A DNA stretch of 45,610 nucleotides from the NCBI RefSeq assembly GCF_014762705.1, contig NZ_JABURL010000061.1, positions 1-45,610 of the forward strand, written 5' to 3'. Source of the DNA: Cyclobacterium sp. (GTDB lineage Bacteria > Bacteroidota > Bacteroidia > Cytophagales > Cyclobacteriaceae). The position numbers and the translations under genes are program-made. Under the pieces are notes generated by a model. The model did not search any database, was not told the DNA's origin, and worked only from the letters and a program-made list of their open reading frames with translations. Shown here piece after piece: positions 8,143 to 29,206 of this stretch. Each line of letters begins with the position of its first letter. Positions within the stretch are counted from its first letter, which is position 1.

Positions 8143-8172
8143 TTTTTAATATCAAATTAAGAAAACGATTAA

Positions 8173-9183
8173 GTGCAAACTGATATAGATATATTGGAAA
8201 ATGAAATACTTAAGCAATATCCTGAAGTGCTTGATATACTTTTACGTGACCATACAACCCATAAAAATATCTTTTGGGCTACCGATGATTATGAGAATTT
8301 AGGCAAAGACTATCATTTTGATGCCCAAATCTTACCTGAGCTAATTACAGGTAAAAATGGTAGTATTATAATGCCGAGAGTTCAGAAAGATATTTTACTT
8401 CAACAAAGCAGGTCAAGGGACATGGCAGAAGTGTTTACACCTTCATGGATTTGCAATGCTCAAAATAATCTAATCGATAATGCTTGGTTTGGTAGAGAGA
8501 ATGTTTTTAATACAGAATTAAAAAAGTCAAACGGATTTAAATGGAATATCAACAAGGATATAGTAATTTTTCCCGAGAATAAAACGTGGAGAGATTATGT
8601 AAAAGATACACGGCTTGAAATGGCTTGTGGAGAAGCACCATATATTACAAGTCGATATGATACTACAACTGGTAAATTCATTCCGGTTGAAAACCGTATT
8701 GGAATATTAGACAGAAAACTCAGAGTTATTAGTGAAAATGTTGAAAGTACTGGTGAATGGCTTAAATGGACCCAAATGGCATATAAAAATACGTATGGTT
8801 TCGAATTTCATGGCGATAGCTTATTAATAGCAAGAGAAGCAATGCTTGTTACATTTATTGATAACTATAAAGAGAAATTTGGAAAAGAACCTTTATTAAA
8901 GTCAATTCAATATATTGCCTATATTATTTCATGGAATGTTTGGCAAATGGATGGGTTAAAAGGTGTTGTTCCAAATACATGTGGGGAAATTACAATAACT
9001 GATATAGATCTTTTTGGAAATAAAAAAACTGAAAGTAGTTTTTGCAGGGGTTGCATGGATAATAATATTTTAAGACACAACGGTACTTATTGTTTAATTA
9101 AAGACTGGTCTAACAAGGATTTAACAACCGGAAAAAAAGGCCGAAAGATTAGGTTTGTTGATTTGTTAAAGAACATGAGATAA
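8173..9183 (+). CDS. AdoMet-binding half of a split adenine methyltransferase (R-M subunit)
   Basis: The 336-aa protein resembles annotated 'restriction endonuclease subunit M' proteins. Visible motifs are EVFTPSWICN (residues 86-95, motif X-like), RLEMACGEAPYITSRYD (147-163, motif I-like AdoMet loop) and FEFHGDSLLIAREAM (211-224). No catalytic (N/D)PPY motif is present. The C-terminal part has C270, C291xxC294 and C307, a possible zinc site. The start is GTG at 8173, immediately after an in-frame TAA, so no upstream start is possible. The stop overlaps the start of the next gene (TAATG at 9181-9185), implying translational coupling to the protein that carries NPPY. Together the two would form one N6-adenine methyltransferase; this split is inferred from motif distribution. 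Confidence 0.72.
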   Translation: MQTDIDILENEILKQYPEVLDILLRDHTTHKNIFWATDDYENLGKDYHFDAQILPELITGKNGSIIMPRVQKDILLQQSRSRDMAEVFTPSWICNAQNNLIDNAWFGRENVFNTELKKSNGFKWNINKDIVIFPENKTWRDYVKDTRLEMACGEAPYITSRYDTTTGKFIPVENRIGILDRKLRVISENVESTGEWLKWTQMAYKNTYGFEFHGDSLLIAREAMLVTFIDNYKEKFGKEPLLKSIQYIAYIISWNVWQMDGLKGVVPNTCGEITITDIDLFGNKKTESSFCRGCMDNNILRHNGTYCLIKDWSNKDLTTGKKGRKIRFVDLLKNMR

Positions 9184-12100
9184 TGAAATTCACATCATCG
9201 CTAAAGCTTAAATTGATTTATGTGTTTCGAATTAATGACCAGGCACACGAGGGCTGCTTAAAAGTTGGTGAAGCAACTTCTGACAATGAAAATATTTGGG
9301 GATTAGAACCAAATAGTAAGGCGTTAAACAGAGCTGCAAAAGCACGCATCGACCAATATACTCTAACAGCTGGCATTGCATATGATTTACTTTATACAGA
9401 AGTATCTGTTTATGCTGAAAAAGGAACAATTAAAGCATTTTCTGATGCTGAGGTTCACAATGTTTTATTGCGTTCAGGTATTAAAAGAAAAACTTTTGAT
9501 AAAAAAAATAAAGCCAATGAATGGTTTGAAACCGACCTAGATACCGTTAAAAAGGCAATATCTGCTGTAAAAGAGGGAAAAGATTCACTACAGTCCAGGG
9601 AAATTACAATATCCCAAAATCCTATTGTTTTCAGACCGGAACAATTAGACGCCATCGAAAGAACAAAAAAGCAATTTAAAAGGAGCAGTGAAATGCTTTG
9701 GTTTGCTAAAATGCGTTTCGGAAAAACCCTATCGGCACTTCAGGTAGCAAAGGAACATTTGTTTAACAGAACACTTATTTTAACCCACCGACCTGTTGTT
9801 GATAAAGGTTGGTTTGAAGATTTCGGAAAAATATTTTACGATTTACCTGAATATACCTACGGTTCAAAAAATCAAGGAAATACTTTTGATATATTAGAAA
9901 ATCTATTCAAAAAAGGGGAAACAAAATATGTCTATTTTGCTTCAATGCAAGACTTACGGGGCTCAGAACTCGTAGGCGGAAACTTTGACAAAAACGACGA
10001 GATTTTTTCAACAATTTGGGATTTCATTATTGTTGATGAAGCACACGAAGGCACTCAGACAGAGCTTGGTAAGGCTGTATTGAGAGAATTAAAAAAAACA
10101 AATACCAAAATTTTACATTTATCTGGCACACCATTTAATTTGCTCGACAATTACAAAGAAGAAGAAATATATACATGGGATTATGTGATGGAGCAAAAAG
10201 CAAAGGCTGACTGGGACAAAGTCCACTTTGGCGACCCAAACCCTTATGCATCACTTCCAAAATTAAATATCTTCACGTACGATATAGGTAAACTTGTTGT
10301 AGGTTTTATTGATGAAGAAGTAGCTTTTAATTTCCGTGAGTTTTTTAGAGTGGATAAAACTGGAGGTTTTATTCACTGCAAGGATGTGCTTTCATTTTTA
10401 AATCTTATTTGTAAGCACGATGTAGAAAGTAATTATCCTTATTCCACCAATGAATATCGTGATAATTTTCGCCATTCACTGTGGATGGTTCCTGGTGTAA
10501 AAGAAGCAAAAGCATTAAGTAGAATGCTTCAATCTCATCCTGTTTTCGGGCAATTCAAAATTGTTAATGTAGCAGGAGAAGGCGATGAAGAACAAACCAA
10601 AGAAGAGGCACTTAAAAAGGTCGAAAGTGCAATTACAGATAAACCACATGAAACTTATACTATTACACTTTCTTGCGGTAGGTTGACTACAGGGGTATCG
10701 GTAAAGGCATGGACGGCAGTTTTTATGCTTTCGGGTTCGCATAATACAGCAGCATCTTCTTATATGCAGACTATTTTCCGAGTACAAACACCAGCAACAA
10801 TCAACGGAAAAGTGAAAGAGGAATGTTTTGTTTTTGATTTTGCACCCGACCGGACTTTAAAAGTGATTGCCGAAACAGCAAAAGTGTCTGCAAAGGCGGG
10901 CAAAACCTCAGGCGAAGACCGTAAATTAATGGGTGAATTCCTCAATTTTTGCCCAATAATAGCGGTGCATGGTTCGCAGATGCTCAGCTACGATGTTAAC
11001 GGCATGCTCGAGCAGCTTAAAAAAGTGTATGTTGAACGTGTAGTTCGAAATGGTTTTGAAGATGGCTATTTATACAACAACGACCAACTGATGAAATTAG
11101 AGTCGGTGGAATTAGAAGAATTTGACGGACTTAAAGAGATTATTGGAAGCACCAAGGCAATGCCCAAAAGTGGCGACATTGATGTAAATAAGCAAGGATT
11201 TACTGATGAAGAATACAAACAGCTTGAAACAGCTAAGAAAAAAAAGAAAACAGAATTGAGCGAGGAAGAAAAACAATTGCTAGCTGAAAAATCAGATAAA
11301 AAGAAAAACCGTGATAGTGCCATCTCAATACTTCGTGGAATTTCTATCCGTATGCCTTTGCTTATTTATGGAGCCGATGTAATAAACGAGGAAACTGAAA
11401 TTTCTATTGACAACTTTACCGAATTAGTTGACGACCAATCGTGGGAAGAGTTCATGCCCGAAGGAGTTGATAAACCAACCTTTTTGAAATTCAAAAAATA
11501 TTACGAACCCGATGTTTTTCGAGCGGCAGGTAAACGAATTAGGGCGCTTGCCAGAGCCGCTGACCAACTTACGATTGAAGAACGCATAGAACGGATAACT
11601 TCAATATTTGGCACTTTCAGGAATCCCGACAAAGAAACCGTTTTGACTCCTTGGCGAGTGGTAAACATGCACTTAGGCGATTGCTTAGGAGGTTACGTGT
11701 TTTTAGATGAAAATCGGGAGAAAACCATCGATGAACCTCGTTTTGTATTGCAGGGTGAAGTAACCGAAAATGTATTTTCTTCCGATGCTAAAATATTAGA
11801 AATAAATTCAAAATCAGGTCTTTATCCGCTTTATGTTACTTACAGTATTTTTCGAAAGCGTGTGGCAGAAATATATCCCGATAAAGAACCAAATACTTTA
11901 ACCATTAGGCAACAATTGGAACTTTGGAATAAAACAGTAGTAGAAAATATTTTTGTTATCTGTAAAACCCCAATGGCAAAAGCTATTACCAAACGTACCT
12001 TAATTGGTTTTAGAGATGGTAAGTTAAATATGCACGCTTTCGAAGACATAGTGAATCAGATAACAAACAAAACAGGAAATTTTGTAAAACGTCTTAAAAA

Positions 12101-13142
12101 AGGCAATACTTATCGTAAAGAATTAAATATTAATAATATGAAATTCAATGCCATTGTAGGTAATCCACCGTATCAAATAAAAGGTGGCGCAGGAGGAACA
12201 AGTGACTCTTCAATTTATCATCATTTTGTTGAAATGGGTAAAAAAATAGAACCTAAATATCTGTCTATGATAACCCCATCTCGCTGGTTAGCAGGAGGTC
12301 GAGGACTTGGGGATTTTCGACAAGAAATGCTTAGCTCCAATAATATTATAAAGCTAATTGACTTTCCTGTTTCCAGAGAGGTTTTTCCTAATGTTGAAGT
12401 TAAGGGGGGAATTAGTTATTTTCTTTGGTCTGGTGATTACAATGACAAATGTGAAGTCTCTGTGATACGTGGAGAAGATAAAGCTTCATCATTTCGGCAG
12501 CTGGATGAATTTGATGTTTTTGTACGACACCCTTTAGCCGTTGAAATTTTGAGAAAAGTCATAAGAGCAGATGAACCATCAATTATGGAGATTCTAACAG
12601 CAGACACTCCCTTTGGAATTGCTACCAACTTTGATGGCTTTCATAAACAAAAACAACCAGGAGATATAGCTCTATATTACGTTCGTTCAGGTAAACGTGA
12701 TATAGGTTTTGTTCCCAGAGAGTTAATAAGAAAAAACAAACATCTTATTGATAAATGGAAGGTTTTTGTTCCTAAAGCAGGCTCGGATGGTGGTCAAAAA
12801 ATACCAGACTCTGTACTGGGCAAGCCTTGGGTAAGTATAAAGCCATCTGTTGCATCACAGACATTCTTGGCTTTCTTTGTAGAAAGCGAAAAGCAGGCAC
12901 AAAATGTTGAATCTTATTATAAAACGAATTTTTTTAGGCACCTTGTTTCATTGAGAAAAATTACCCAAGATGCTCTCCGTCCAATGTATTCTTGGGTTCC
13001 ACTTCAAGATTTCTCTCAAAAGTCAGACATTGATTGGAATAAGTCTATACCTGAAATTGACCAGCAGCTTTATACGAAATATGGATTGAATGAAGAAGAA
13101 ATAGCATTTATTGAAAGAATGATAAAACCAATGACAGAGTAA
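9183..13142 (+). CDS. GIY-YIG nuclease / SF2 helicase / Eco57I-type methylase fusion, R-M protein
   Basis: This 1319-aa protein has several domains. Residues about 8-120 resemble a GIY-YIG (T5orf172-like) nuclease: IYVFRI (12-17), CLKVGEA (25-31) and FSDAEVHNVL with a candidate catalytic Glu at 90. Residues about 148-600 are an SF2 helicase: MRFGKT (177-182, Walker A), VDEAHEG (284-290), LSGTP (313-317) and GRLTTGVSV with a downstream QTIFRVQTP-type motif VI. Around 690-740 is a Lys/Glu-rich linker. Residues about 985-1319 are an Eco57I-like methylase part with GNPPYQI (NPPY at 994-997), SRWLAGGRGL and a likely target-recognition region. No motif I is visible here; it is on the preceding 336-aa protein. 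Base composition is AT-rich like its partner. Predicted role: translocating restriction plus modification. Confidence 0.78.
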   Translation: MKFTSSLKLKLIYVFRINDQAHEGCLKVGEATSDNENIWGLEPNSKALNRAAKARIDQYTLTAGIAYDLLYTEVSVYAEKGTIKAFSDAEVHNVLLRSGIKRKTFDKKNKANEWFETDLDTVKKAISAVKEGKDSLQSREITISQNPIVFRPEQLDAIERTKKQFKRSSEMLWFAKMRFGKTLSALQVAKEHLFNRTLILTHRPVVDKGWFEDFGKIFYDLPEYTYGSKNQGNTFDILENLFKKGETKYVYFASMQDLRGSELVGGNFDKNDEIFSTIWDFIIVDEAHEGTQTELGKAVLRELKKTNTKILHLSGTPFNLLDNYKEEEIYTWDYVMEQKAKADWDKVHFGDPNPYASLPKLNIFTYDIGKLVVGFIDEEVAFNFREFFRVDKTGGFIHCKDVLSFLNLICKHDVESNYPYSTNEYRDNFRHSLWMVPGVKEAKALSRMLQSHPVFGQFKIVNVAGEGDEEQTKEEALKKVESAITDKPHETYTITLSCGRLTTGVSVKAWTAVFMLSGSHNTAASSYMQTIFRVQTPATINGKVKEECFVFDFAPDRTLKVIAETAKVSAKAGKTSGEDRKLMGEFLNFCPIIAVHGSQMLSYDVNGMLEQLKKVYVERVVRNGFEDGYLYNNDQLMKLESVELEEFDGLKEIIGSTKAMPKSGDIDVNKQGFTDEEYKQLETAKKKKKTELSEEEKQLLAEKSDKKKNRDSAISILRGISIRMPLLIYGADVINEETEISIDNFTELVDDQSWEEFMPEGVDKPTFLKFKKYYEPDVFRAAGKRIRALARAADQLTIEERIERITSIFGTFRNPDKETVLTPWRVVNMHLGDCLGGYVFLDENREKTIDEPRFVLQGEVTENVFSSDAKILEINSKSGLYPLYVTYSIFRKRVAEIYPDKEPNTLTIRQQLELWNKTVVENIFVICKTPMAKAITKRTLIGFRDGKLNMHAFEDIVNQITNKTGNFVKRLKKGNTYRKELNINNMKFNAIVGNPPYQIKGGAGGTSDSSIYHHFVEMGKKIEPKYLSMITPSRWLAGGRGLGDFRQEMLSSNNIIKLIDFPVSREVFPNVEVKGGISYFLWSGDYNDKCEVSVIRGEDKASSFRQLDEFDVFVRHPLAVEILRKVIRADEPSIMEILTADTPFGIATNFDGFHKQKQPGDIALYYVRSGKRDIGFVPRELIRKNKHLIDKWKVFVPKAGSDGGQKIPDSVLGKPWVSIKPSVASQTFLAFFVESEKQAQNVESYYKTNFFRHLVSLRKITQDALRPMYSWVPLQDFSQKSDIDWNKSIPEIDQQLYTKYGLNEEEIAFIERMIKPMTE

Positions 13143-13262: not shown

Positions 13263-13589
13263 GATAAAACAAAAATTAGTGCTATATTGAAACCTAAGTA
13301 ATTGAAATCGAATAAATGCCAGTTGGTAATAGTATAGACGGCCCCGCCAGATTCCTCTGACGGGGAGCGGCTCACACACCACTCGGGGTACGGCTCTTCC
13401 CGATGAATCGGGACAGGCTGTAGCTTCTATTCATCCCGGCTCGTTGTTAAAATGAATCGCCGCGGTGAACCATTTCATAACGCTCTGCCCCAGTTCACTG
13501 GATTGTAGGTTTCGACCGCTTGAATGACTTCGTCGGGCAGGTTTTGAGGTTATAACATATTAAAAGCTTTGTAAGATGGAATCTTTGCC

Positions 13590-13662
13590 ATTTATCTATT
13601 TTGGCTAAAGCCCATGATTTTGAAATGCTTTCAGTTGGAATGGGCTAAAGCCGCATTCCTAT
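13590..13662. repeat. Palindromic intergenic repeat (TTGGCTAAAGCC family)
   Basis: It contains TTTTGGCTAAAGCCCAT followed by GGAATGGGCTAAAGCCGCAT and TCCTAT. The second block folds as a hairpin (GGAATG-GGCT / AGCC-g-CATTCC). The same two blocks recur at six or more other intergenic places in the window. Confidence 0.8.
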
Positions 13663-13801
13663 CGATTCAGTTAGGCCTGGGAATTACAAAGTGCTATATT
13701 CTGGAATGTTTTTTTTTTTTTAGGTGATACAGGCAAAGGTGCCATTCAAAAAAATGTTAATATGCCGCTTGCCATCTTGTCCGAAATGATTAATTTGAAA
13801 G
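13637..13801. repeat. Direct repeat, copy 1 of 2 (~160 bp)
   Basis: It runs from GGAATGGGCTAAAGCCGC through TTAGGCCTGGGAATTACAAA, a T-run, GGTGATACAGGCAAAGGTGC and GTCCGAAATGATTAATTTGA. It matches 15435-15593 almost base for base, differing mainly in the length of the T-run and a few substitutions. The pair encloses the SHOCT-like and TlpA-like genes. Confidence 0.88.
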
Positions 13802-13933
13802 CGGAAAGAAGAGGAGGTTTGTAGTTATTGGTGAATCTTGCTAAGTAACAATAGGGTTTAGAGGGACAACAAGTTTTTGCCGGATTTATATTCCATTGGT
13901 AAACAGATAGGCAATTTGTGGCTAATTTGAAAA

Positions 13934-14521
13934 ATGACAACACTAAAACAGAAATATTATTTGTCAAATAAGACTTTTGAGCTTACTGACCGAAAAGTTC
14001 TGATTGTAGAAAAGTCTGTATTTGATGATAAAGAATGGGAAGCCAGATACAATGAACTCGGACTTGACTTGGTTAAGGTTAAATCGAGAGAAGGAATTGG
14101 CAATGTTGTGTTTTTTGGCGGACTATTGATATTGACGGTCTTTTTGACATTTAAGGCTTTTACGGATGGAACCGATTATAAATTGGCATTCTTCTTTCTT
14201 TTAGGGTGTTTTATGTGGGGAACTGTAATTTGGTGGAGTATTCAGAAATACTTTGTATCTCAATATGTTTTAGCTGGAGGAGATAAAATATTGACTTTCT
14301 TCATCAATAGTCCAGATGAAAAGACCGTTAAGGGCTTTATTGACCAAATTAGAGAGCGAACGAGGAGAAGACTGAAGGATGAATTAACTCATTTCGATCC
14401 AGACTTAAGTTTTGAAGACCAATTGAACAACTTGAAATACTTAAAAAATATTGATGTGATTGACCAGGAAGAATTTGAAAAGATTAGAGAACAGTTAAGG
14501 GAAAAACATTTGATAAAATAA
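13934..14521 (+). CDS. Membrane protein with SHOCT-like C-terminus, 195 aa
   Basis: The function is unknown. After a soluble β-rich start (residues 1-50), two hydrophobic segments (about 56-76 and 84-105) form a membrane hairpin. The soluble C-terminal half (about 107-195) looks PH-like (QYVLAGGDKILTFFI) and ends with a short helical pair, LKYLKNIDVIDQEEFEKIRE, typical of SHOCT domains. These architectures are usual for small bacterial membrane proteins that anchor or oligomerise. It lies between the two copies of the 160-bp direct repeat, and the TlpA-like gene follows after 14 bases, so the two may be co-transcribed. The ATG at 13934 follows in-frame AT-rich non-coding DNA. Confidence 0.7.
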   Translation: MTTLKQKYYLSNKTFELTDRKVLIVEKSVFDDKEWEARYNELGLDLVKVKSREGIGNVVFFGGLLILTVFLTFKAFTDGTDYKLAFFFLLGCFMWGTVIWWSIQKYFVSQYVLAGGDKILTFFINSPDEKTVKGFIDQIRERTRRRLKDELTHFDPDLSFEDQLNNLKYLKNIDVIDQEEFEKIREQLREKHLIK

Positions 14522-14535
14522 AAAATTGGCCATAA

Positions 14536-15330
14536 TTGAAACGCAAAATAATTCTACTATTACTTCTTCCCCTTCTATTTTCCGCCTGTAAGGAAAAAAC
14601 AGAAGAGAATTTAATATCCGGTAAAGTGGATAAGCTTGATCCAAAAGTAACTATCAATAAAATTGAATCTGATATCAGCCAATGGTGGACTTATCATTCA
14701 GCTAACATCTCCTTATCATCGAATTTTATAGGTTTAAATGAAAAATCCGACACAATCCAAAAAGAGCAATTTTTAGAACAATTAACTTCCGGGGATTTTA
14801 TTCCTTTAAAGTTAAAATCTAAAATAGAAACCTATAAGTTGTACAAATTAGACGCTTTAGCTGATAAGGGTATTGGAAGTACCATAAAAAATGCCTCTAC
14901 CACCAATCTCGAGCACTTCAAAATGGAAGGTAAAACCTTTCCCAAATTTGATTTTAGAGATTTGAATGGCCAGCACTACAACAATGAAAACACCAAAGGT
15001 AAAACCATCCTTATTAAAACCTGGTTTATTGGATGTACGGCCTGTATTGCTGAGTTTCCTGAACTTAATAGGATTGTTGAAGATCATGAAAATGACGACG
15101 ATATGGTTTTTATTAGCCTGGCATTGGATGCCAAACCCGAATTAGAAAGGTTCCTATTAAAAAGGCCTTTCAAATATCAGGTGGTTCCGGAAAAAAGAGA
15201 TTTTTTAGAAAAAGAATTAAACCTGCAAATCTATCCGACGCATATAGTAGTAGATAAAAATGGTACAATTGTAAAAGTGGTAAATAAGGCATCAGAAATG
15301 ATTGCATTTATTGAAAATAACATAGATTGA
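14536..15330 (+). CDS. TlpA-like thioredoxin-fold lipoprotein
   Basis: The 264-aa thiol-disulfide oxidoreductase is predicted to be attached to the outer side of a membrane. The N-terminus is a lipoprotein signal (KRKIILLLLLPLLFSAC, lipid-modified Cys at residue 18). The C-terminal half (about 130-255) is a TlpA/AhpC-TSA thioredoxin fold with WFIGCTACIAEFPEL: the CxxC pair is C167-TA-C170. ITPThis-type closing strand is represented by YPTHIVVDKNGTI, with the cis-Pro region. It probably reduces or isomerises disulfides of envelope proteins. The start is TTG at 14536, right after an in-frame TAA, so no earlier start exists. It sits 14 bases after the SHOCT-like gene, within the direct-repeat-bounded segment. 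Confidence 0.82.
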   Translation: MKRKIILLLLLPLLFSACKEKTEENLISGKVDKLDPKVTINKIESDISQWWTYHSANISLSSNFIGLNEKSDTIQKEQFLEQLTSGDFIPLKLKSKIETYKLYKLDALADKGIGSTIKNASTTNLEHFKMEGKTFPKFDFRDLNGQHYNNENTKGKTILIKTWFIGCTACIAEFPELNRIVEDHENDDDMVFISLALDAKPELERFLLKRPFKYQVVPEKRDFLEKELNLQIYPTHIVVDKNGTIVKVVNKASEMIAFIENNID

Positions 15331-15434
15331 CGCTATAAAGCTGACATCCACCGTTGTAAAAAACCAGTCACCATTTAAAAGACAATTTTCTCATTTCGGA
15401 TAAAGCCCGGGAGGGGGTGAAATTTTATTTAATA

Positions 15435-15593
15435 GGAATGGGCTAAAGCCGCATTCCTATTGATTAAGTTAGGCCTGGGAATTACAAAGTGCTATATTCT
15501 GGAATGTTTTTTTTAGGTGATACAGGCAAAGGTGCCATAAAAAAAATGGTAATATGCCGCTTGCCATCTTGTCCGAAATGATTAATTTGAAAG
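15435..15593. repeat. Direct repeat, copy 2 of 2 (~160 bp)
   Basis: This is the near-identical partner of 13637-13801, starting with the GGAATGGGCTAAAGCCGC palindrome and ending GATTAATTTGAAAG. An ATG inside this copy (15554) opens an artificial N-terminal extension of the cupin reading frame. Confidence 0.88.
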
Positions 15594-16304: not shown

Positions 16305-16616
16305 ATTCATCCCGGATTATGTATACCGCTATAAATTTTCCGTTCATCCATTTTGGCTAAAGCCAGGAGTGCTTGTTCAAACATTTCGGAATGGGCTATT
16401 TTCTATTGAGTAATAATCATTTAAAAAAAGGATTTTTTCCCTCAATTGTCCACTGCTTTAGCTGTGGGCAACCTGGCATTTATGGAAAATTGGCTTTAGC
16501 CAAACCCTTTATCCATAACCCTTCAAATCCATATTTCACAATTTTATCCAATTCGGCTTAAGCCGGGATAGGTAATGCTATTTCAGGGGATGGGCTAAAG
16601 CCGCATTCCTATTGAA
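16305..16616. repeat. Long palindromic intergenic repeat element
   Basis: Modules in order are CCATTTTGGCTAAAGCC; GGAATGGGCTATTTTCTATT; a hairpin around CCACTGCTTTAGCTGTGGGC; GAAAATTGGCTTTAGCCAAA; CCATAACCCTTCAAATCC; and GGGCTAAAGCCGCATTCCTA. The whole ~300-bp layout recurs at 17345-17622, including a shared upstream GGATTATG...ATTTTCCG segment, so this is a composite repeated unit rather than isolated palindromes. Confidence 0.85.
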
Positions 16617-16875
16617 GAAGAGTTGGTTAAATGATAAAATAAATATGGCAAGTGAGCGATTTTTGGGCAATAATGTTATTTCCGATTTATTACCGAGCTA
16701 TGCGAAAAGATGATCAGGACGAGCCATTCAAACAAATAACAGCTGCTCTTGATGTACATTTGGGGTTTTTTTCCGATTTCCACGATATTTCCAATAAAAC
16801 CAACTATATTGTTCGCAATAACTATTTAGATGGTAAAACCATCTATGTGATTTTATTCCTAAATAAAATTTTATC

Positions 16876-17313
16876 ATGAAGTACCTGATTATTTTGCATT
16901 TATTTTTTCTACCCCTCGTCATTTCTGCACAAAGCCCATCCAGCAGGGTAGTGCATACCGTTTTGGCTGACTCCATTGTGGGCAGGTATATGGCAGATTA
17001 TGGTGGGGTGGATACCACGAGTTTTGTGCTGTACGGTAAATCCGGGTATTATTCTTTTGGCGAGGGAAATGTGGTGTTAAAATCGGAAAGATGTGACACT
17101 CCCATAAGCGGTACCATTACCAAATTGAAGATCCGTAAAAATACCGCTTCTGTAAAAGTGCTATTTAGCGAAGGCAAGCGCTATTACACAAAAGTCAGGT
17201 TAAAGCGTTTTAATCCAATGTCACCCTGGAGGGTAAAAACAAGGATTATTTACCCCATCTTGTCCATCCCCCGAAAAGAGCCCCTGATCATGCATTATAG
17301 CCTTAATATCTGA
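16876..17313 (+). CDS. Small secreted protein of unknown function, 145 aa
   Basis: The family is not recognised. It begins with a Sec signal peptide (MKYLIILHLFFLPLVISAQS) and continues as a β-rich, basic polypeptide with no obvious catalytic motif. Two short stretches, SIVGRYMADYGG and SGYYSFGEGNVVLK, suggest a compact β-sandwich. The start at 16876 is the ATG that directly precedes the signal peptide. It is flanked on both sides by the long palindromic repeat elements and has no co-oriented close neighbour, so it is probably transcribed alone. An overlapping frame just upstream (16652-16879) was judged to be non-coding. Confidence 0.65.
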   Translation: MKYLIILHLFFLPLVISAQSPSSRVVHTVLADSIVGRYMADYGGVDTTSFVLYGKSGYYSFGEGNVVLKSERCDTPISGTITKLKIRKNTASVKVLFSEGKRYYTKVRLKRFNPMSPWRVKTRIIYPILSIPRKEPLIMHYSLNI

Positions 17314-17344
17314 GGATTTTCTGTCGTACTGGCCAGGATGAAGA

Positions 17345-17622
17345 ATACCGTTCGGATTATGGATGCCCTTATAGATTTTCCGTCCATCCATTTTGGCTAA
17401 AGCCCATGGTTTGTTATTCAATTCTAAGGAATGGGCTATTTCCTATTGAAGAGTATCCATTGGGAATCAGAATTTTTATAATCAATTGCCCACTGCTTTA
17501 GCTGTGGGCAACCTGGTATTTATGGAAAATTGGCTTTAGCCAAACCCTTTATCCATAACCCTTCCAATCCAAATTTCACAATTTTTTTCAATTCGGCTAA
17601 AGCCGCATTCCTATCGATGACA
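17345..17622. repeat. Long palindromic intergenic repeat element, second full copy
   Basis: It has the same module order as 16305-16616: TTTTGGCTAAAGCCCATG, GGAATGGGCTATTTCCTATT, TTGCCCACtgctttagctGTGGGCAA (8-bp perfect stem), AATTGGCTTTAGCCAAACCC and GGCTAAAGCCGCATTCCTAT. Confidence 0.87.
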
Positions 17623-19885: not shown

Positions 19886-20060
19886 AATGATAGGAATGGG
19901 CTATTTCCTATTGAGGCATTTTTTTACAATCCAGAATTTGGAAATAAAAATCCTCCAAATCAATTGCCCACTGCTTTAGCTGTGGGCAACCAGGTATTTA
20001 AGGAAAATTGGCTTTAGCCAAAGCCTTTATCCATAACCATTCAAATCCAAATTTCACACG
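19886..20060. repeat. Palindromic intergenic repeat (partial long element)
   Basis: It contains ATAGGAATGGGCTATTTCCT, the TTGCCCAC...GTGGGCAA hairpin, AATTGGCTTTAGCCAAAGCC and the CCATAACCATTCAAATCC tail. The left TTTTGGCTAAAGCC and right GCATTCCTAT modules are absent. It begins three bases after the cyclase remnant. Confidence 0.82.
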
Positions 20061-21816: not shown

Positions 21817-22512
21817 ATGGGTTTGCTTTTGGCTTATAGGCTATATGCGGATATAAGTTTTCTATTGATCAAAGTGTCTTTCCTTGAGCTATAGGCATCA
21901 ATTCTGGCTAATGCCGGCTATTATGTGGAATAGGCACTGGAAGGGGTGTTTAAAGTATGATCATAAGCGAAGAGGGCAAAAGCAAGAACAAGCAGAGCCG
22001 AAATTGCGGAAGCATAGTGCTTTCCCTCAATTAAAAACCCCGGGAAATGAATTTTTTAACGACAACAGAATATAGAATTGACTCAAAATGCCATTTATTC
22101 TGTGTTTTTCCGTAATAACATAGAATAACTATATTTCTCCTGTTTTTTTTAGATAAAAAATACGTCTTTATGAAATAATCTTTATATTGCTAATGTGGTT
22201 TTGAAAAAGGTGCGGTTTGGAATATCGAGCCGGTTTTTAATAAAAGCGAAAAAAACCTTTACGCTTTTTTTTATAAATAGGGTATCTATTTTGATTTCCC
22301 CTGTTTGATGTAGCCCAAGTAAGCTATAGAGAAATTTTGAATAAAATTCCAGAAAGCCAGCATTGAGACGCATGATAAATTTGTCCGGTGGCTGACTTCT
22401 GTTTGGCCAGCATAGGTATCCACATGGATTGGGTGATTGGTATAATAAATAGCCTTAAAAATATATAATTCTAACAACCAGTCAATAAAAGGGTGACTTC
22501 CTATTTATGAAA

Positions 22513-22529
22513 GAAACTCATAGAGTTTC
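22513..22529. promoter_or_regulatory. Inverted repeat upstream of the precursor gene
   Basis: GAAACTC-ATA-GAGTTTC is a perfect 7-bp inverted repeat with a 3-base spacer, 38 bases before the precursor ATG. It could be an operator or a 5'-UTR hairpin. No regulator gene lies beside it in the cluster. Confidence 0.45.
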
Positions 22530-22567
22530 ATTATGAAAATTATTTATATACACTTAAACCTAAACAA

Positions 22568-22882
22568 ATGAGCAATTTATTAGAAAATTACGAAGACTTT
22601 AATACTCCAATTGGGGAATTATTGGAGGGTCATGATGTAAGTATTTTAACTGATGAAGCTAAAAAATTAGTAGAAGGAGATCTGGTGGCGTTGGCATGGA
22701 AAAATCATACGCCTCGTACTGAAAAATTAGGAGTAAGAGATTTGCAATCGATCGAAGAAGCGTTCTCCAAACACAGCCTTTTTGGAAGTTCAAATTCTCC
22801 CGTAGTGGGCGCAGCATGTTGCTGCTGTACCTGTACTCCGGCCTGTTGTTGTACTGCGGCCGCTGTCATAAAAGCAGCTTAA
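22568..22882 (+). CDS. TOMM/LAP precursor peptide with poly-Cys core
   Basis: This 104-aa RiPP precursor has residues 1 to about 82 as an acidic, Leu-rich leader (LTDEAKKLVEGDLVALAW, residues 27-44; VRDLQSIEEAF, 56-66), resembling leaders that are read by RRE domains. The core is residues 84-96, CCCCTCTPACCCT, followed by AAAVIKAA. It has eight Cys (84-87, 89, 93-95) and three Thr (88, 90, 96) as candidate thiazol(in)e and methyloxazol(in)e sites, interrupted by P91-A92. The leader ends in SPVVGAA, with G81-A82 a possible cleavage point. It is the first gene of the cluster, and a terminator-like hairpin separates it from the modification genes, as expected for a product needed in excess. The functional call rests on the composition plus the adjacent YcaO, E1-like and SagB genes. 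Confidence 0.9.
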   Translation: MSNLLENYEDFNTPIGELLEGHDVSILTDEAKKLVEGDLVALAWKNHTPRTEKLGVRDLQSIEEAFSKHSLFGSSNSPVVGAACCCCTCTPACCCTAAAVIKAA

Positions 22883-22896
22883 TCTCGTCCTCCTTT

Positions 22897-22931
22897 TTGA
22901 AAGTGGGGAAAGCTCCTCACTTTCAATTTTT
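22897..22931 (+). terminator. Terminator-like hairpin between precursor and enzymes
   Basis: The stem TTGAAAGTGGGGA / TCCTCACTTTCAA (13 pairs, one G-T) with loop AAGC is followed at once by TTTTT. It has the form of an intrinsic terminator. The enzyme genes start 26 bases later in the same direction with no obvious own promoter, so it probably acts as a partial terminator that lowers enzyme expression relative to precursor, or as a transcript stabiliser. Confidence 0.75.
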
Positions 22932-22956
22932 AAATTCATAAATCCAACTTCGTATT

Positions 22957-24045
22957 ATGGAAATTAAATTAAAAGCCCTTCCATTTCAGGTTATTGAATT
23001 GGAAGATAGGGTTGTATTGAAGCGTGGACTTTCTTCCATGTCAATTCCCGATAAGAGTGTACTCCTTATCATTAAAGTTATCCAAAAAGCGCTAATACAA
23101 AGTCCTAAAACAGTAAATGAACTGGCGGGTTTATTCACAGGAAGTATCCATAATTTGATCACGAATTTCGTTCGCCATTTGATAGATAAAAAATTTATTG
23201 TTGACGTCAACGATACCAATACCTATCCCCACGATAAGGAAACTCCCCAGGACGTATTTTACTGGCATTTCAACGCCCATCAAACCCAGGTTTCCGACTT
23301 ATTAAATGAAAAACCATGGGCATTTATAGGAATTAACGAACTAAATAAGAAGCTAATTCGCTCTCTTTTTTTAGACGGTAAACACAGCTTCCTGGTGGTG
23401 GATGATCCCTCTCTACGAAATATTCGTTTTTTCGACGACAACCACGGCCTCCTGGATGATTTTTGGAAAGATGAGCGAATTCAAATAATAGCTGAAACCC
23501 ATTTTTTGGAAAATACGAGAGAGGCAGGTTTTATGATCGCATCCTCTGAATTTGGTAGTTTTTATTTGTTGGAATCATGGAATGCCTTTGCTATAAAAAA
23601 TAACATTGCTTTTTATCCACTTTTATTACAGAACATGGTGGGCTACGCCGGCCCCTTGGTTATTCGGGATGAGGGGCCTTGTTTGGAATGTTTAAAACTT
23701 CGACAAAACTCCGCCAGTTCCGATTTTACAGAGAAACGCCTTACCGAAAAATTTGCCTTTGAAGGACAGCAAGTTGCAGCGTATCACCATGCCATGTTAA
23801 ATGTACTGGCAGAAGTAGGAGCGTTTGATTTAATCAAATTTAAATCCAATATTCAGTGGAATCTGGGTACCATCTGTGAAGTAGATCTATTGGCAGGTTC
23901 AATGATGAGAAGAAATCTGGTAAAAGCGCCACGCTGTTCAGTATGTGGACCTTTAGATGAGATGCCTTTAATCAATATTCACCGGAAACTGACCTCTGAA
24001 GATGCCTGGAAAGAAATTGAGCAAACGGTAGGCTACGATGAATGA
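22957..24045 (+). CDS. TOMM cyclodehydratase partner protein (E1-like, RRE-containing)
   Basis: The 362-aa protein resembles the 'bacteriocin biosynthesis cyclodehydratase' partner (C protein) of YcaO enzymes. The N-terminal ~85 residues form a winged-helix RRE-like unit (KTVNELAGLF, LITNFVRHLIDKKFIVDV) that would bind the precursor leader. The rest is an E1/ThiF-like fold with two zinc-type pairs, C242-LE-C245 (GPCLECLKLRQ) and C327-SV-C330 (APRCSVCGPL). Motifs for adenylation are not expected, since in this family ATP is used by YcaO. It overlaps the YcaO gene by 8 bases, so the two are translationally coupled and should form the cyclodehydratase complex that converts Cys and Thr of the core into azolines. 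Confidence 0.85.
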   Translation: MEIKLKALPFQVIELEDRVVLKRGLSSMSIPDKSVLLIIKVIQKALIQSPKTVNELAGLFTGSIHNLITNFVRHLIDKKFIVDVNDTNTYPHDKETPQDVFYWHFNAHQTQVSDLLNEKPWAFIGINELNKKLIRSLFLDGKHSFLVVDDPSLRNIRFFDDNHGLLDDFWKDERIQIIAETHFLENTREAGFMIASSEFGSFYLLESWNAFAIKNNIAFYPLLLQNMVGYAGPLVIRDEGPCLECLKLRQNSASSDFTEKRLTEKFAFEGQQVAAYHHAMLNVLAEVGAFDLIKFKSNIQWNLGTICEVDLLAGSMMRRNLVKAPRCSVCGPLDEMPLINIHRKLTSEDAWKEIEQTVGYDE

Positions 24046-25369
24046 CCTAATTACACCAATACGAAGGCTCACGGATACTTTGCCTTTTCTGCTTGATCCC
24101 AAAGTTGGGATTATCACAGGCGTCAGAGAGCATCCGCTTGAGGTCGATTCTCCCAGATTTTTTCGTTTTAATGGTTCAGCTGCCAACACAGAGGCCTTTG
24201 GAGCGTACCGAAACTTCGCCATTGGCGGAGGTGCTGCCATCAACCGGGAGTTGGCCTTAGCCAAAACAATAGGGGAATGTGTGGAGCGCTATTGTGCAGC
24301 AATTTATGACAAGAAACAATTTCCATTGTGTTCCTATAATAAGGCACCGTTTACCTGTGTTCATCCGAAGAAATTTGCTTTATACAGTCAAGAGCAATAC
24401 AACCACCCCGAATTTGAATTTGACGAATTTACTGAAGACGCACCTGTTCGGTGGATAGAGGCCATAAATTTAGAAACTAAGGAGAGAACAGCAGTTCCCG
24501 CTTCAATGGTTTTTGTCCCTTATTTTTTTTATGAAAATGGCGATGAAACGCCGATTGTCCAACCAATTTCGTCAGGGTTGTCTTGTCATTGCTCCTTGGA
24601 AGAGGCTGTGGTGGGGGGGATTTGTGAAGTTATCGAAAGAGATAATTTTATGATTACCTGGCAAGCAAAGCTATCCAGAAGGAAAATCAGGAAACACACA
24701 TTAAGCAAAAATAACCAGGATTTGATTCAGCGTTTTGAAGAAGTAGGATATGAGATCCACCTGATGGACATTTCCAATGAAACGAAGATCACCGGAATAT
24801 TAGCGGTGGCGACTGGTACAAAAACGAACTTTGTACCGCTCGTAGTTGCGGCATCGGTAGCCTTATCCCCGGAAGAAGCGGTTAGAAAAGCAATAGAGGA
24901 GTTAGCGCATACGGAAAGGTATGCCTATCAAATTAAAAATGAATTGCCCCGTCTGGAATCGGATCCTGAATTTGACAATGTACTGGGGCAAGTCCACCAC
25001 GTTAATTTTTGGGTAAATTCTGCAGTCAGTAAGGAGGCTGAATTTTTATATAGCTCAGACCAATGGATGGATTTTAAGGAATTGGTGGATTATTCTCAAG
25101 AAACTCCGTCGGAAGACATGAAAGCCCTGGTTGCTTTGATCAAAAAATCAGGATACGATGTATTGGTTACAGATATAACGACCTCTGATATCAGGAGCCT
25201 GGGGATGACCGTCATTCGGGCGATTATACCCGGATATCATCCGCTATTTATGGGGTACCACAAGCGGCCTTTGGGAGGTGATCGTCTTTGGACGATACCT
25301 CAGCAATTAGGTTTTGAAGGGTTGGTTCCCGGAAAAGCAGATTATCCATTTCCCCATCCCTTCCCCTAA
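24038..25369 (+). CDS. YcaO cyclodehydratase of a TOMM cluster
   Basis: The 443-aa ATP-dependent cyclodehydratase activates backbone amides by phosphorylation during azoline formation. The nucleotide- and Mg-binding glutamates of YcaO proteins are visible in IGECVERYCAA (E80, E83), CSLEEAVVGGICEVIERDNF (E188/E189, E197, E200) and AIEELAHTERYAYQ (E287/E288). The C-terminus is DYPFPHPFP, a PxPxP-type tail that in characterised TOMM YcaOs is needed for activity, so the protein is complete and probably active. It begins inside the end of the partner gene (ATG at 24038) and is followed after 33 bases by SagB. This is the strongest single marker that the cluster makes an azole-containing peptide. 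Confidence 0.93.
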   Translation: MNDLITPIRRLTDTLPFLLDPKVGIITGVREHPLEVDSPRFFRFNGSAANTEAFGAYRNFAIGGGAAINRELALAKTIGECVERYCAAIYDKKQFPLCSYNKAPFTCVHPKKFALYSQEQYNHPEFEFDEFTEDAPVRWIEAINLETKERTAVPASMVFVPYFFYENGDETPIVQPISSGLSCHCSLEEAVVGGICEVIERDNFMITWQAKLSRRKIRKHTLSKNNQDLIQRFEEVGYEIHLMDISNETKITGILAVATGTKTNFVPLVVAASVALSPEEAVRKAIEELAHTERYAYQIKNELPRLESDPEFDNVLGQVHHVNFWVNSAVSKEAEFLYSSDQWMDFKELVDYSQETPSEDMKALVALIKKSGYDVLVTDITTSDIRSLGMTVIRAIIPGYHPLFMGYHKRPLGGDRLWTIPQQLGFEGLVPGKADYPFPHPFP

Positions 25370-25402
25370 CAGAAAAATATTCACTGATAAAATAATTAAC
25401 TT

Positions 25403-26209
25403 ATGTTAGATTCATTGTGGAAAGAAGCAGCACTTAACAGCGAATCCGTTACTCCTTCCTGGGAGATTTTTCATGAAAATTCAAAAACGGGCCATTATGA
25501 CGGTTCTTTGACAAATGAACGGGTAGTGGAAGAAATGAGCAATTTATACGACGTGTTTCCTTATAACCAATTCCCGTCTATTCCTTTACCTACGAATTTT
25601 GCGCGGATCCAACGCTCCTTTATGGAAACAGTTACCAATCGAGTTACTCCTAAAGAAATCGTACCTCAAACCCTAAGCCTGGAGCAGCTTCACACCATCT
25701 TATATTGTGGCTACGGAGTTACCAGAGACAACAAAGACAACGAATACATCCGACGCCCTTTCCGTACTGTGCCCTCGGGAGGAGCCCTGTACCCGCTGGA
25801 GTTGTATTTTTATACCAACGAAAAGGTTGAATCTTTAAAAGCGGGACTTTATCACTATTCTCCAGTAGAAAATTCCATTCAATTGATTCGGGAGGGAAAT
25901 TTTGATGAGGAAATTGCGAATGCCCTGGTGGGTTTTCAAACCCACCTTGCCTACGACACTTCTATGATCCTTTTCATTACAGCTGCATTTAACCGATCCA
26001 CCTTTAAGTACAAGGAAAAAGGCTACCGATTTACCCTTTTTGAAGCCGGGCATGTGGCGCAGAATATTAATTTGGCCGCCACCGCCATGGAATTAGGGGT
26101 CATCAATATCGGCGGGTATCACGATCGGCTGGTCGATCGTTTTTTGAAAATTGATGGGTTGAATCACGCAACGGTTTATCTGAATGGAATTTGCAGCGGA
26201 AAAAAATAA
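25403..26209 (+). CDS. SagB-type FMN dehydrogenase (azoline oxidase)
   Basis: This nitroreductase-fold enzyme of 268 aa oxidises azolines to aromatic azoles with FMN. The FMN-binding signature of SagB-type proteins is present, R121-TVPSGGALYPLELYFY, together with TNRVTPKEI (residues 78-86), SLEQLHTILYCGYGVT, and the C-terminal GHVAQNINLAATAMELG and INIGGYHD segments. It sits between YcaO and the 746-aa protein and overlaps the latter by 26 bases, so it belongs to the same transcript. The presence of a dehydrogenase predicts thiazoles/oxazoles rather than only azolines in the mature product. The ATG at 25403 keeps the full family length. Confidence 0.9.
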   Translation: MLDSLWKEAALNSESVTPSWEIFHENSKTGHYDGSLTNERVVEEMSNLYDVFPYNQFPSIPLPTNFARIQRSFMETVTNRVTPKEIVPQTLSLEQLHTILYCGYGVTRDNKDNEYIRRPFRTVPSGGALYPLELYFYTNEKVESLKAGLYHYSPVENSIQLIREGNFDEEIANALVGFQTHLAYDTSMILFITAAFNRSTFKYKEKGYRFTLFEAGHVAQNINLAATAMELGVINIGGYHDRLVDRFLKIDGLNHATVYLNGICSGKK

Positions 26210-28424
26210 GGCAAGGCCCATCATTTCCCGATCCAATGAAACAACATGCTTAAAAGGATTTCATTTTGAATCCTGGGCCATTTTGCAAAAACAACTTGAT
26301 GTAGCGTGTCTGAGCGGGGATTGTGTTTTTTCGGATTTGTCATTGGGTGCCTGGAAAGGTCACTGGGTGGTGCATGAGATATGCAGTCAATTAGCTATCG
26401 AACGCTATGACTATTTACAGCCGCTGATAGGCGTCGATAGCCAAGGTGAGGAATACGCCTCCATTATTAGTCGCTTGATTGATAACGAAAGTACAGGTGA
26501 CCAAAACTTTATCATCGCTTATGAGAGCTGTAAGAGAATCATTTCTGAGCTTGTCAAACAACATATTAAATGCGTTGTAATCATTTCTCCTTTGCCGGGA
26601 TATTCCTGGGAACGGGAAAATATTGAATTTATCCAATTGCTTTCAGAAGGTTTGAAAACTACCTCATGTAAGGTCGTACTGTTGAATTTTGGCGACGCTT
26701 CTTTTCCCTTGGGCTGGCAGGTAACCTATGATTTTCCACGAACTGATCAAAGGAGTCCCACAGGGTCGTTTCCGATCCCCGGACTAATTGAAGGCCAATT
26801 GGCATCTAAACTTCAGGAATTAATTCCACCTTCCAGTCTTATTTTATCCAGGAGCCATGTGGTGATTGCTCCTTCAGAAAGAAAAAAAGAAACCAGCAAT
26901 CGCAGCTTGTTTATCAGTAGGTTAAAGCCAATTGATGACGCTTCTCATTTGCGGGTTTATTTTGAAATTCAGGAGCTTACAAATGATAGAGAGATTGGAT
27001 TTTTACAATGGGAAGCTGCCAGGCGTTTTTCGGAAGGCGGTTATGCCATTGCTCTTAGAATTTTAGAGGCTATTCGAAAAAAAATCCCCGATAAATTGAA
27101 ATTAGCATCCGTGGTCTCCCAAATTCAGAATATTCGGATTGCACTCATGTACTTTTCGGAGGCAGCAAACGAAGCAGCTCCTCAGGAAGATTTACCCAAT
27201 GAATACAAAGCTTCTTTGTACCAAAGTAAGGCCTGGGGACTGGTGATGACCAACAGGGCACCTGAAGCTGAACCATTTTTTGAACTGGCAAGAGAGCATC
27301 TCTCTGAAACAGATTATCCCAGAGTCTATCTTTATTTATTAAATATTTCCGCTTTAAATAAATTAAAAAATGGTGATGTGGATGCGGCATTTGAGTTTGA
27401 AAGGGAGATAGAGAATAAACTTGCTCAACAAAAAGATATCGATTGGCATATATTGTATATAAACTCGATCAACCAAGCACGCCTTTACAAGAAAATCAAA
27501 GAATTTGAATTGGCTCAAACTTATTATTTGAAAGCTTTTGAAGTGAATAATAGTCTAAGGGTAGAAAGCGATTTATTATATTTTAATTTTTGCTTTGCGC
27601 AATTAGAAGAATTAAAGGGGAATAATAACAGGGCCTTTATTTTTTGGCTGCGATCAAGTTTGCACTGGCTGAGTAACGAACATCCTGAAGCATTAGCTCC
27701 CCGGGTTGCACAAGCTATTTTGGGCAGTGGATTGTCGTCCAATGTTGTATCTGTAGCGTCTATATCGATTCAATTAAAAAATGCATTGCTCTCAATTTGT
27801 CGGAAAATGAACCTCTTTTTCGAGGCTTTTGAACCGAATGGAATGATTACGTTTAGCAGAATAGAAAGAGCGGGCGAACATCCGGAGATGGCTTTAGGTA
27901 CGGCAGGTTTGGGCATTATGGCGTCATCCAAGGTGGTCAGAAGCGTTTACAACGGCCCGGAATATATTTCATTAAAAGGATTAACCCATAGCATTTTGTG
28001 TACGTTATTGCCTGAATTGAAAAATTATAAAACAGTTTATACCGATTCACAATTTGGAAATGAATTGCCTGTGTCATCTCAGGAATTGTTATCCTCATGC
28101 ATCAGGTATCAGGTTTCAAGAATTATTTTTGGTGAAAAAAAATATCATTTTACGGAAAAGGAGCAGTTTGAATTTTTGTTGTCTTCCAAAGTCAGGATTT
28201 GTCAGGCGATTGCTTCAGTTAAGCGGGGAGAAAATAAGCTTATTGTTTATTTTAAACGCTACAGAAGGCCCTTGACTTTAACAAAGACCGAGAAAACAAT
28301 TTTGGAAAATATCCATCTTTATTCTAATGTCAGAAGTATTTATGAAGCGTTCAATAAGGATGAATTTCTTTTGGAAGTTTTGAGGCAAATGGAGGAAAAG
28401 CGTTTAATCACCATTTTTTTGTAA
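26184..28424 (+). CDS. Large TPR protein of unknown function in the TOMM cluster
   Basis: The 746-aa protein has no family recognised. Residues 1-235 look like a compact α/β domain (KCVVIISPLPGYSW at 129-142; CKVVLLNFGDASFPLGW at 162-178) without a recognisable Walker A. Residues about 270-515 are helical with TPR-like pairs (ALRILEAIRKK; APEAEPFFELAREHL; FELAQTYYLKAFEVN; NNRAFIFWLRSSLHWLS). Residues about 530-690 are unassigned. The last ~50 residues resemble a winged helix (LTKTEKTILENI then LLEVLRQMEEKRLITIFL), as in RRE/PqqD-like leader binders. It overlaps SagB by 26 bases and is followed by the protease after 2 bases. A scaffold, leader recognition, extra tailoring or immunity are all possible. 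Confidence 0.7.
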   Translation: MEFAAEKNKARPIISRSNETTCLKGFHFESWAILQKQLDVACLSGDCVFSDLSLGAWKGHWVVHEICSQLAIERYDYLQPLIGVDSQGEEYASIISRLIDNESTGDQNFIIAYESCKRIISELVKQHIKCVVIISPLPGYSWERENIEFIQLLSEGLKTTSCKVVLLNFGDASFPLGWQVTYDFPRTDQRSPTGSFPIPGLIEGQLASKLQELIPPSSLILSRSHVVIAPSERKKETSNRSLFISRLKPIDDASHLRVYFEIQELTNDREIGFLQWEAARRFSEGGYAIALRILEAIRKKIPDKLKLASVVSQIQNIRIALMYFSEAANEAAPQEDLPNEYKASLYQSKAWGLVMTNRAPEAEPFFELAREHLSETDYPRVYLYLLNISALNKLKNGDVDAAFEFEREIENKLAQQKDIDWHILYINSINQARLYKKIKEFELAQTYYLKAFEVNNSLRVESDLLYFNFCFAQLEELKGNNNRAFIFWLRSSLHWLSNEHPEALAPRVAQAILGSGLSSNVVSVASISIQLKNALLSICRKMNLFFEAFEPNGMITFSRIERAGEHPEMALGTAGLGIMASSKVVRSVYNGPEYISLKGLTHSILCTLLPELKNYKTVYTDSQFGNELPVSSQELLSSCIRYQVSRIIFGEKKYHFTEKEQFEFLLSSKVRICQAIASVKRGENKLIVYFKRYRRPLTLTKTEKTILENIHLYSNVRSIYEAFNKDEFLLEVLRQMEEKRLITIFL

Positions 28425-28426
28425 AG

Positions 28427-28912
28427 ATGGGTGCTGTTAAATTAGATTTTGAAATTGAACCTCAAAGCGATTCCCGCTTATGTTGGGCAGCGGTTGCAGT
28501 GTCAGTTGCCCGATTTTATAAAGAAAGCAGTGGACTTTCTCAACTTGATTTAGCAAAACGAATGTTGGGAAATAATTACAATCGATTTTTTGCACCTGAA
28601 AAAGCCCTGGTTTGGCTGGGTATTTTTTCCGAATGCCTGGACAGACCTTTGTCCCGGGAAGAAATCTTTTCTGAATTACAAAATTCCCACCCAATTGCCG
28701 CATGTATGAAGCATTTTGTGGGTTGGCACCTGGTTGTGATCTATGGTATCGATGAAGTTGGTAATTTACTAATTGCAGATTCTATGCTTGGAAATAGCAT
28801 TTGGAGTTTGCATGCCTTTACCCATGAGTATCAGAAATATTACCATTGGACTCATGCCTATAAAACAATTGGGAGATCGGATCCTATAGATCTCCATCCT
28901 GGAATGGGCTAA
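28427..28912 (+). CDS. Papain-like (C39-type) cysteine protease, candidate leader peptidase
   Basis: The 161-aa protease-like protein has a papain-type active site: Q13-x5-C19 in EPQSDSRLCWAAVAV (oxyanion Gln and nucleophile Cys), H101 in GWHLVVIYGID, and D118 in LLIADSM. The length and CWAA motif fit small peptidase C39/papain-like enzymes. In a RiPP cluster the natural role is removal of the precursor leader. It lacks the transporter part found in C39-ABC exporters. It starts 2 bases after the 746-aa gene. The last codons, GGA-ATG-GGC-TAA, are the beginning of the GGAATGGGCTAAAGCC intergenic repeat, so the C-terminus was fixed by insertion of that repeat and may be shortened. Confidence 0.75.
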   Translation: MGAVKLDFEIEPQSDSRLCWAAVAVSVARFYKESSGLSQLDLAKRMLGNNYNRFFAPEKALVWLGIFSECLDRPLSREEIFSELQNSHPIAACMKHFVGWHLVVIYGIDEVGNLLIADSMLGNSIWSLHAFTHEYQKYYHWTHAYKTIGRSDPIDLHPGMG

Positions 28913-29206
28913 AGCCGCATTCCTATTGAGGTTAGGGCTTTGATTAATAGGATTGTGTTTTATGGAATGGGATGATTTTTCTTTAAGAAATTGAATATGG
29001 ATCATTTTTTAAATCCAACTTGATTTTGGCTAAAGCCAGGTTTTGGTTTTTCTTCAATAGGAATGGCCTATTGCCTATTGAAGGCGAGCCATTTGTTGGC
29101 AATTCCTGATTTGTAATCAAAATACATTTAAAACAATTGCCTAATAGCTGCAGGCAATAAAGATATTCCAGTATTATTGGCTTTAGCCAAAACCTCTCCT
29201 CTCAAA
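28901..29206. repeat. Palindromic intergenic repeat element at the cluster end
   Basis: It begins GGAATGGGCTAAAGCCGC inside the last codons of the protease gene and continues with TTTTGGCTAAAGCCAGG, AATAGGAATGGCCTATTGCC, CAATTGCCTAATAGCTGC and TATTGGCTTTAGCCAAAACC. These are diverged versions of the modules of the long elements at 16305 and 17345. Confidence 0.8.

Follow-up and report, generated by a model that had tools for sequence, protein, structure and literature searches.

What do six adjoining genes on contig NZ_JABURL010000061.1 of Cyclobacterium sp. (assembly GCF_014762705.1) make? The stretch analysed, hereafter the window, covers positions 1 to 45,610 of this contig (45,610 nt), and six open reading frames (ORFs) on its plus strand follow one another in the order precursor peptide, E1-like protein, YcaO, SagB, a 746-aa protein that we call U746, and a papain/C39-like peptidase. 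With a probability of about 0.76, these genes form a cassette for a thiazole/oxazole-modified microcin (TOMM), that is, a linear azol(in)e-containing peptide (LAP), of a family that is not named in the sources compared and is known from its genes alone. Similar peptides and cassettes occur in distant bacteria, which points to one conserved product. The system is compact and testable, and its core peptide is near-constant in several phyla; bacteriocin cores, in contrast, are usually variable.

The cassette and its enzymes

The 104-aa precursor gene (22568..22882) is followed by the E1-like, SagC-type partner, a predicted leader-binding protein of 362 aa (22957..24045); the YcaO cyclodehydratase of the SagD family (443 aa, 24038..25369); the SagB-type azoline dehydrogenase (268 aa, 25403..26209); U746 (26184..28424); and a 161-aa stand-alone papain/C39-like cysteine peptidase, the predicted leader peptidase (28427..28912). 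These coordinates and the shared plus strand agree with the first-pass annotation, which had listed six co-directional genes in this order. It had also described overlaps or tiny gaps from the second gene onward: intergenic distances along the cassette are 74, -8, 33, -26 and 2 nt, and the description holds for -8, -26 and 2 nt but not for the 33-nt gap, which is small rather than tiny.

YcaO matched PF02624 at 2.6e-65 and TIGR03604 at 287 bits (cut-off 219), and residues E80, E83, R84, E197, E200, R201, E287 and E288 were kept in all six aligned sequences. The window protein ends in YPFPHPFP, and the PxPxP-type tail noted earlier is thus present as PHPFP; five of the six aligned sequences, the window included, carry such a tail, and the remaining one ends in PHAYP. 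The best Protein Data Bank (PDB) matches of the YcaO profile were the cyanobactin cyclodehydratases MusD, TruD and LynD, its closest solved relatives; these are chains of 775-784 aa with YcaO as the C-terminal half, whereas the cluster's E1 and YcaO are separate proteins. The E1-like protein scored 37.3 bits against TIGR03882 (cut-off 36.9) and 61.5 bits against TIGR03603, below the cut-off of 187.65; it matched MccB at E 8.9e-5 and had no Pfam match. Its two CxxC pairs are invariant in 16/16 sequences and presumably form a zinc site, and we likewise presume an N-terminal recognition element of the kind found in ribosomally synthesised and post-translationally modified peptide (RiPP) systems. 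SagB reached 151 bits against TIGR03605 (cut-off 78), with McbC among its PDB matches at 1e-13, and K202 and Y203, which we take to be the catalytic pair, are invariant in 16/16.

The best Pfam match of the peptidase was PF12385 (Peptidase_C70) at 1.7e-8, in keeping with the earlier papain-like call; C39 reached only 0.008, and PDB sequences gave no match up to E 1. Gln, Cys, His and Asp positions that we assume to be catalytic are invariant in 14/14 sequences. This Q-C-H-D set and a Gly-Ala/Gly/Ser-type cut site are, as we understand them, shared with the C39 peptidases of peptidase-containing ATP-binding cassette (ABC) transporters. Unlike those, the cluster's peptidase stands alone without an ABC part, and it is therefore not such a transporter. 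Together, the peptidase and the VG-A/S/G site suggest that the leader is removed in the cytoplasm.

According to the main text of Cox 2015 (PMC4603692), TOMM biosynthesis proceeds by leader binding through the E1-like protein, cyclodehydration by YcaO and oxidation by SagB; precursor cores consist to 45-65% of Gly, Cys, Ser and Thr, and about 20 families are listed. The cluster resembles the TOMMs described there in having separate E1-like and YcaO proteins, a SagB-type dehydrogenase and a small precursor with a Cys/Thr-rich C-terminal core. Its YcaO is of TOMM type, its E1-like partner lies just above the cut-off, and the Cys/Thr-rich core of its short precursor follows a conserved leader; the cyclodehydratase pair, the dehydrogenase and this core bear out the TOMM/LAP reading of the first-pass annotation. 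The descriptions compared, by contrast, include neither this family of precursors nor U746 nor the order of the six genes, and the main text nowhere uses the terms 'Bacteroidetes', 'Tistrella', 'Bradyrhizobium', 'Pectobacterium' or 'C39'. We found no paper on this gene set or its core strings in the literature, where supplementary tables or subscription papers might hold the family.

From these genes we infer a pathway in which the E1-like protein would bind the conserved leader and present the core to YcaO. YcaO, using ATP, would close core Cys residues (up to eight, perhaps also the three Thr) to azolines, and SagB would oxidise some or all of these to thiazoles, with U746 acting alongside the three enzymes in the cytoplasm. 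The peptidase would then cut after VG-A/S/G and free a peptide of about 22 residues, which in this genome would be exported by a transporter encoded elsewhere.

The precursor and its core

The window precursor has a conserved leader ending in VVG-A and a predicted core, ACCCCTCTPACCCTAAAVIKAA, in which eight Cys and three Thr make up 11 of the 22 residues. Of the 247 ORFs in the window that reach 40 aa, it alone has eight Cys within 16 residues; the runner-up has five. It matched no Pfam or NCBIfam family up to E 1, and its best NCBIfam value in a scan for weak matches was 3.5.

Relatives were collected by a scan of genome contigs with a YcaO alignment, which gave 43 related loci (the window counted apart), probably an undercount because only two peptide patterns were used. 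Eighteen precursors were aligned: those of the window, of L025-L039, with two from the metagenome-assembled genome (MAG) L027, and of L060. Mean pairwise identity was 0.776 in the core and 0.558 in the leader, the core being higher in 134 of 153 pairs, a comparison possibly biased by easier alignment of the Cys-rich core. Over the last 20 core codons, the window differed from its Cyclobacterium relative L025 (C. jeungdonense) by 10 synonymous and 1 non-synonymous changes and from L026, likewise Cyclobacterium, by 10 and 0, respectively; the leader differed from that of L025 by 26 synonymous and 6 non-synonymous changes over 82 codons. At the codon level, the core is under purifying selection. 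The higher conservation of the core and its mostly synonymous codon changes argue for one conserved product. Ahead of the predicted cut, all 18 precursors have the same Gly; the residue after it is Ala in 10, Ser in 5, Gly in 2 and Ile in 1.

A core of this kind raises the question of whether the product is a streptolysin S-like, membrane-active cytolysin, made by the same cyclodehydratase logic and acting on cells after export. The likeness lies in the B, C and D enzymes and in a run of contiguous Cys shortly after Gly, and weak NCBIfam matches arose among seven precursors scanned (TIGR03602 in one, 0.0011; NF033222 in two, best 3.5; the thiopeptide model TIGR03892 in one, 0.048); the window precursor, however, matches no curated family. 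In the cytolysin clusters described in the main text of Cox 2015 (PMC4603692), ABC transporters accompany a CaaX-like protease, and a Gly precedes at least 10 heterocyclisable residues; the longest run in the present core, CCCCTCT, has 7 and is interrupted by Pro-Ala. The cluster differs in its gene set as well, and neither an ABC transporter nor a CaaX-like protease was found among the six cluster proteins and 10 other scanned window proteins. We regard a cytolysin as very improbable. Gallolytisin, described in the same text with a Cys4-Xaa-Cys4 core, ABC transporters and a regulator, shares two Cys runs flanking a short spacer; the cluster core, by contrast, is CCCCTCTPACCC, and the transporter is again missing from the 16 window proteins just named. 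The first-pass annotation had matched neither the core nor the 746-aa protein to TOMM products such as microcin B17, plantazolicin, streptolysin S and goadsporin; in composition the core does resemble streptolysin S-type and gallolytisin cores, though leader and gene set differ. We file the cluster as a putative new TOMM family, neither cytolysin nor gallolytisin, set apart by comparison of descriptions and recognised so far at the gene level.

The stretch between the precursor and E1 genes contains a hairpin of 13 bp and a T tract (22897..22926, plus strand), likely an intrinsic terminator or attenuator that would give an excess of precursor. An uninterrupted stem of at least 10 bp occurs within 60 nt of the precursor stop in 9/16 loci, and the stems of these nine were reached in at most 0.008 of 500 letter shuffles.

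U746, a family of its own

U746 comprises an N-terminal domain, a middle part matching tetratricopeptide repeat (TPR) models and a winged-helix-like C-terminus. In an alignment of 22 members, D51, G55, W57, D100, E102 and G105 of the N-terminal domain are invariant (22/22), and no Pfam family matched this domain in more than one member. The window protein has only sub-threshold TPR matches in Pfam and NCBIfam; across the family, the middle matched TPR models in at most 13/22 members for any one model. The last 50-60 residues gave weak winged-helix matches (PDB best 0.022; HTH_20 in 4/22, best 0.00018), a fold that RiPP recognition elements likewise adopt. U746 is accordingly a family of large accessory proteins, and for its N-terminal domain no relatives are known.

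Judged by its genomic company, U746 is a cassette-linked protein family. Strong matches were found in G036 and G251, besides the window's own genome, among 291 genomes of the order; in G623 among 395 genomes of the phylum (2/395, own included); and in G843 (L033), G846 (L036) and G1108 among 299 Burkholderiaceae genomes, each with an adjoining YcaO. The order search also returned four weak matches (E 3e-5 to 4e-4) in the TPR region. Occurrence of U746 in YcaO-free contexts was considered and rejected, every strong match adjoining YcaO; a role in defence was likewise rejected, PADLOC giving no match. Over 16 loci, the distances of U746 track those of E1, YcaO and SagB (correlations of 0.86-0.94 between matrices), and these correlated distances indicate that the cassette tends to travel as a unit.

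The most likely role for U746, which we propose tentatively and at somewhat less than even odds, is that of a TPR scaffold holding the precursor or the enzymes; its TPR and winged-helix parts fit binding. The main alternative is that U746 works as a tailoring enzyme, its N-terminal domain introducing a modification in addition to the azoles, a possibility to which we give appreciable but lesser weight. The six invariant positions, half of which are acidic, of a domain that has no detected relatives speak for it, as does the retention of U746 where peptidase and leader type change; the lack of any detected known catalytic motif or fold in U746, and its not being found in 20/43 related loci, some on short contigs, speak against it.

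Relatives, spread and surroundings

U746 was found in 23/43 related loci and the peptidase in 13/43 by tblastn at 1e-3, with the same counts from hidden Markov models (HMMs) built largely from the loci in which they were counted. A same-family precursor was found in 17/43 loci by tblastn and, upstream of E1, in 26/43 by an HMM whose alignment already held 16 of the 26. Homologous precursors thus exist in relatives, and their absence, which the first-pass annotation had named as grounds for refutation, did not come true. All six genes stand in order in L025-L035 and L039 (12/43) and in genome G036. Hosts of the full cassette are Cyclobacterium, other Bacteroidota, a Balneolaceae MAG, Brenneria, Pectobacterium, Burkholderia, a Methylococcaceae MAG, Janthinobacterium and the Tistrella plasmid pTM3, spanning Bacteroidota, Balneolota and the beta-, gamma- and alphaproteobacteria. 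The cassette is therefore not specific to Bacteroidota.

A quick YcaO tree, covering 37 of 44 sequences and with 11/34 inner branches below 80, placed the window and L025-L039 (16 rows, all with a same-family precursor) in one clade that mixes Pseudomonadota, Bacteroidota and Balneolota, with a support of 99 in the Shimodaira-Hasegawa-like approximate likelihood ratio test; the root is unsure because the chosen outgroup did not form one side of a branch. Virus or phage origin was rejected, viral contigs containing no YcaO or U746 relatives and phages no precursor match, and so was spread by plasmids, pTM3 being the sole plasmid match for precursor and U746.

Several loci showed features of their own. 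In Pandoraea L037, an ABC ATPase and an ABC-2 permease, both identified by Pfam, lie beside the cassette (13418-15207); Pandoraea L036 has a permease by eye (14389-15207) and no open ATPase frame of at least 200 aa. In Burkholderia multivorans L060, a permease (by Pfam) and an ATPase (by eye) adjoin the cassette (13420-15466); YcaO, SagB and U746 are in pieces, with precursor and peptidase open, and because runs of N lie there the fragmentation may partly reflect assembly gaps, which cannot be told apart from decay. Bradyrhizobium L038 has five genes on a contig that stops 433 bp past U746. An M16 peptidase and a B12-radical SAM gene adjoin the cassette of L033 (14642-17588), possibly a second peptide system.

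Among more distant loci, a B12-binding radical SAM gene lies between precursor and E1 in L041, L043, L047, L048, L050, L051 and L053 (Pfam, 7/7), which do not form one clade in the YcaO tree; L050, L051 and L053 continue with genes for Rieske proteins and alpha/beta hydrolases. In Nitrospirota clusters, a DyP-type peroxidase directly follows SagB (L045:8134-9633 and L046:10682-12202, by Pfam; L049 similar by eye). L055 and L057 each contain two consecutive E1-YcaO-SagB sets. By eye and hydropathy, the precursors of L042 (7285-7743), L047 (232-723), L051 (5901-6389), L058 (7410-7853) and L115 (minus strand, 398-877) have a twin-arginine-like start, a hydrophobic stretch and an AxA-like end ahead of the TOMM leader and a CCCC-type core, and the L054 precursor starts similarly with a single Arg. 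Such starts suggest export of the modified precursor by twin-arginine translocation (Tat); if so, TOMM peptides would gain a way of export that the sources compared do not describe. A profile of the L051 precursor gave five matches among 385 genomes of its class: the genome of L051, the Tistrella genome of pTM3, the genome of L115, and two with Tistrella-like, window-type precursors that have no Tat-like start.

These distributions bear on whether the modified peptide might serve its producer as a conserved cofactor, metal ligand or signal, the cassette being a maturation system rather than an antibiotic pathway. A core that hardly varies across phyla and is better conserved than its leader would suit such a role, as would the Rieske, B12-radical SAM or DyP proteins accompanying distant relatives and the lack of an exporter recognised by eye in the L025-L030 flanks or by Pfam in the 10 window proteins. 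Occurrence is patchy, however (YcaO in 3/12 Cyclobacterium genomes, own included, besides the phylum figure for U746 given above), and ABC-type exporter genes adjoin Burkholderiaceae clusters; we consider this role unlikely. A bolder version is improbable: a widespread superfamily in which one conserved polythiazole would be a functional group of the producer (redox, metal or signal) rather than a diffusible antibiotic, a Tat branch would modify the ring-bearing protein in the cytoplasm and export it folded, and U746 would be a dedicated maturation factor.

Several observations weigh against the TOMM cassette as we have drawn it. The E1-like match exceeds its TIGR03882 cut-off by only 0.4 bits. 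The N-terminal domain of U746 has no detected relative among PDB sequences up to E 10, which leaves room for a catalytic role. The peptidase is absent from two Pandoraea clusters (L036, L037) though their precursors keep the MGS site, and precursor distances correlate with enzyme distances at 0.47-0.50 only. The hairpin in the other 7/16 loci is no better than in shuffles. No exporter was recognised by Pfam among the 10 other window proteins scanned, and an immunity gene was not identified.

In the window's genome, an assembly of 125 contigs with a single detected YcaO gene, contig C121 has matches to C39-type peptidases (8089-13124), one within a frame containing stops. Another sits in a 735-aa frame, and this protein might be a transporter that exports the product in trans.

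The stretch 21979..28870 (plus strand) is colinear with the cassette of Cyclobacterium jeungdonense (84% over 6902 aligned columns). Three sister genomes that lack YcaO (G455, G195 and G067) have both window flanks, colinear, and no cassette, the place of which is occupied in G455 by tandem units of ~200 bp; G174 and G458 carry the cassette on the opposite side of an alcohol dehydrogenase gene. Empty and occupied sites are compatible with gain and loss alike, which cannot be told apart. An Rfam scan of the window gave no match at gathering scores. A dispersed repeat family of ~200 bp surrounds the insertion region (16343-17605, 19892-20058 and 29020-29195), and a tandem array of the same family fills the empty site of a sister genome (L106:8154-10611). 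Further upstream, a defence-like block (4675-13142) encodes a TmtA-like protein and a type II methyltransferase, together with a protein of 1319 aa that matches type II/IIG methyltransferases in its C-terminal part.

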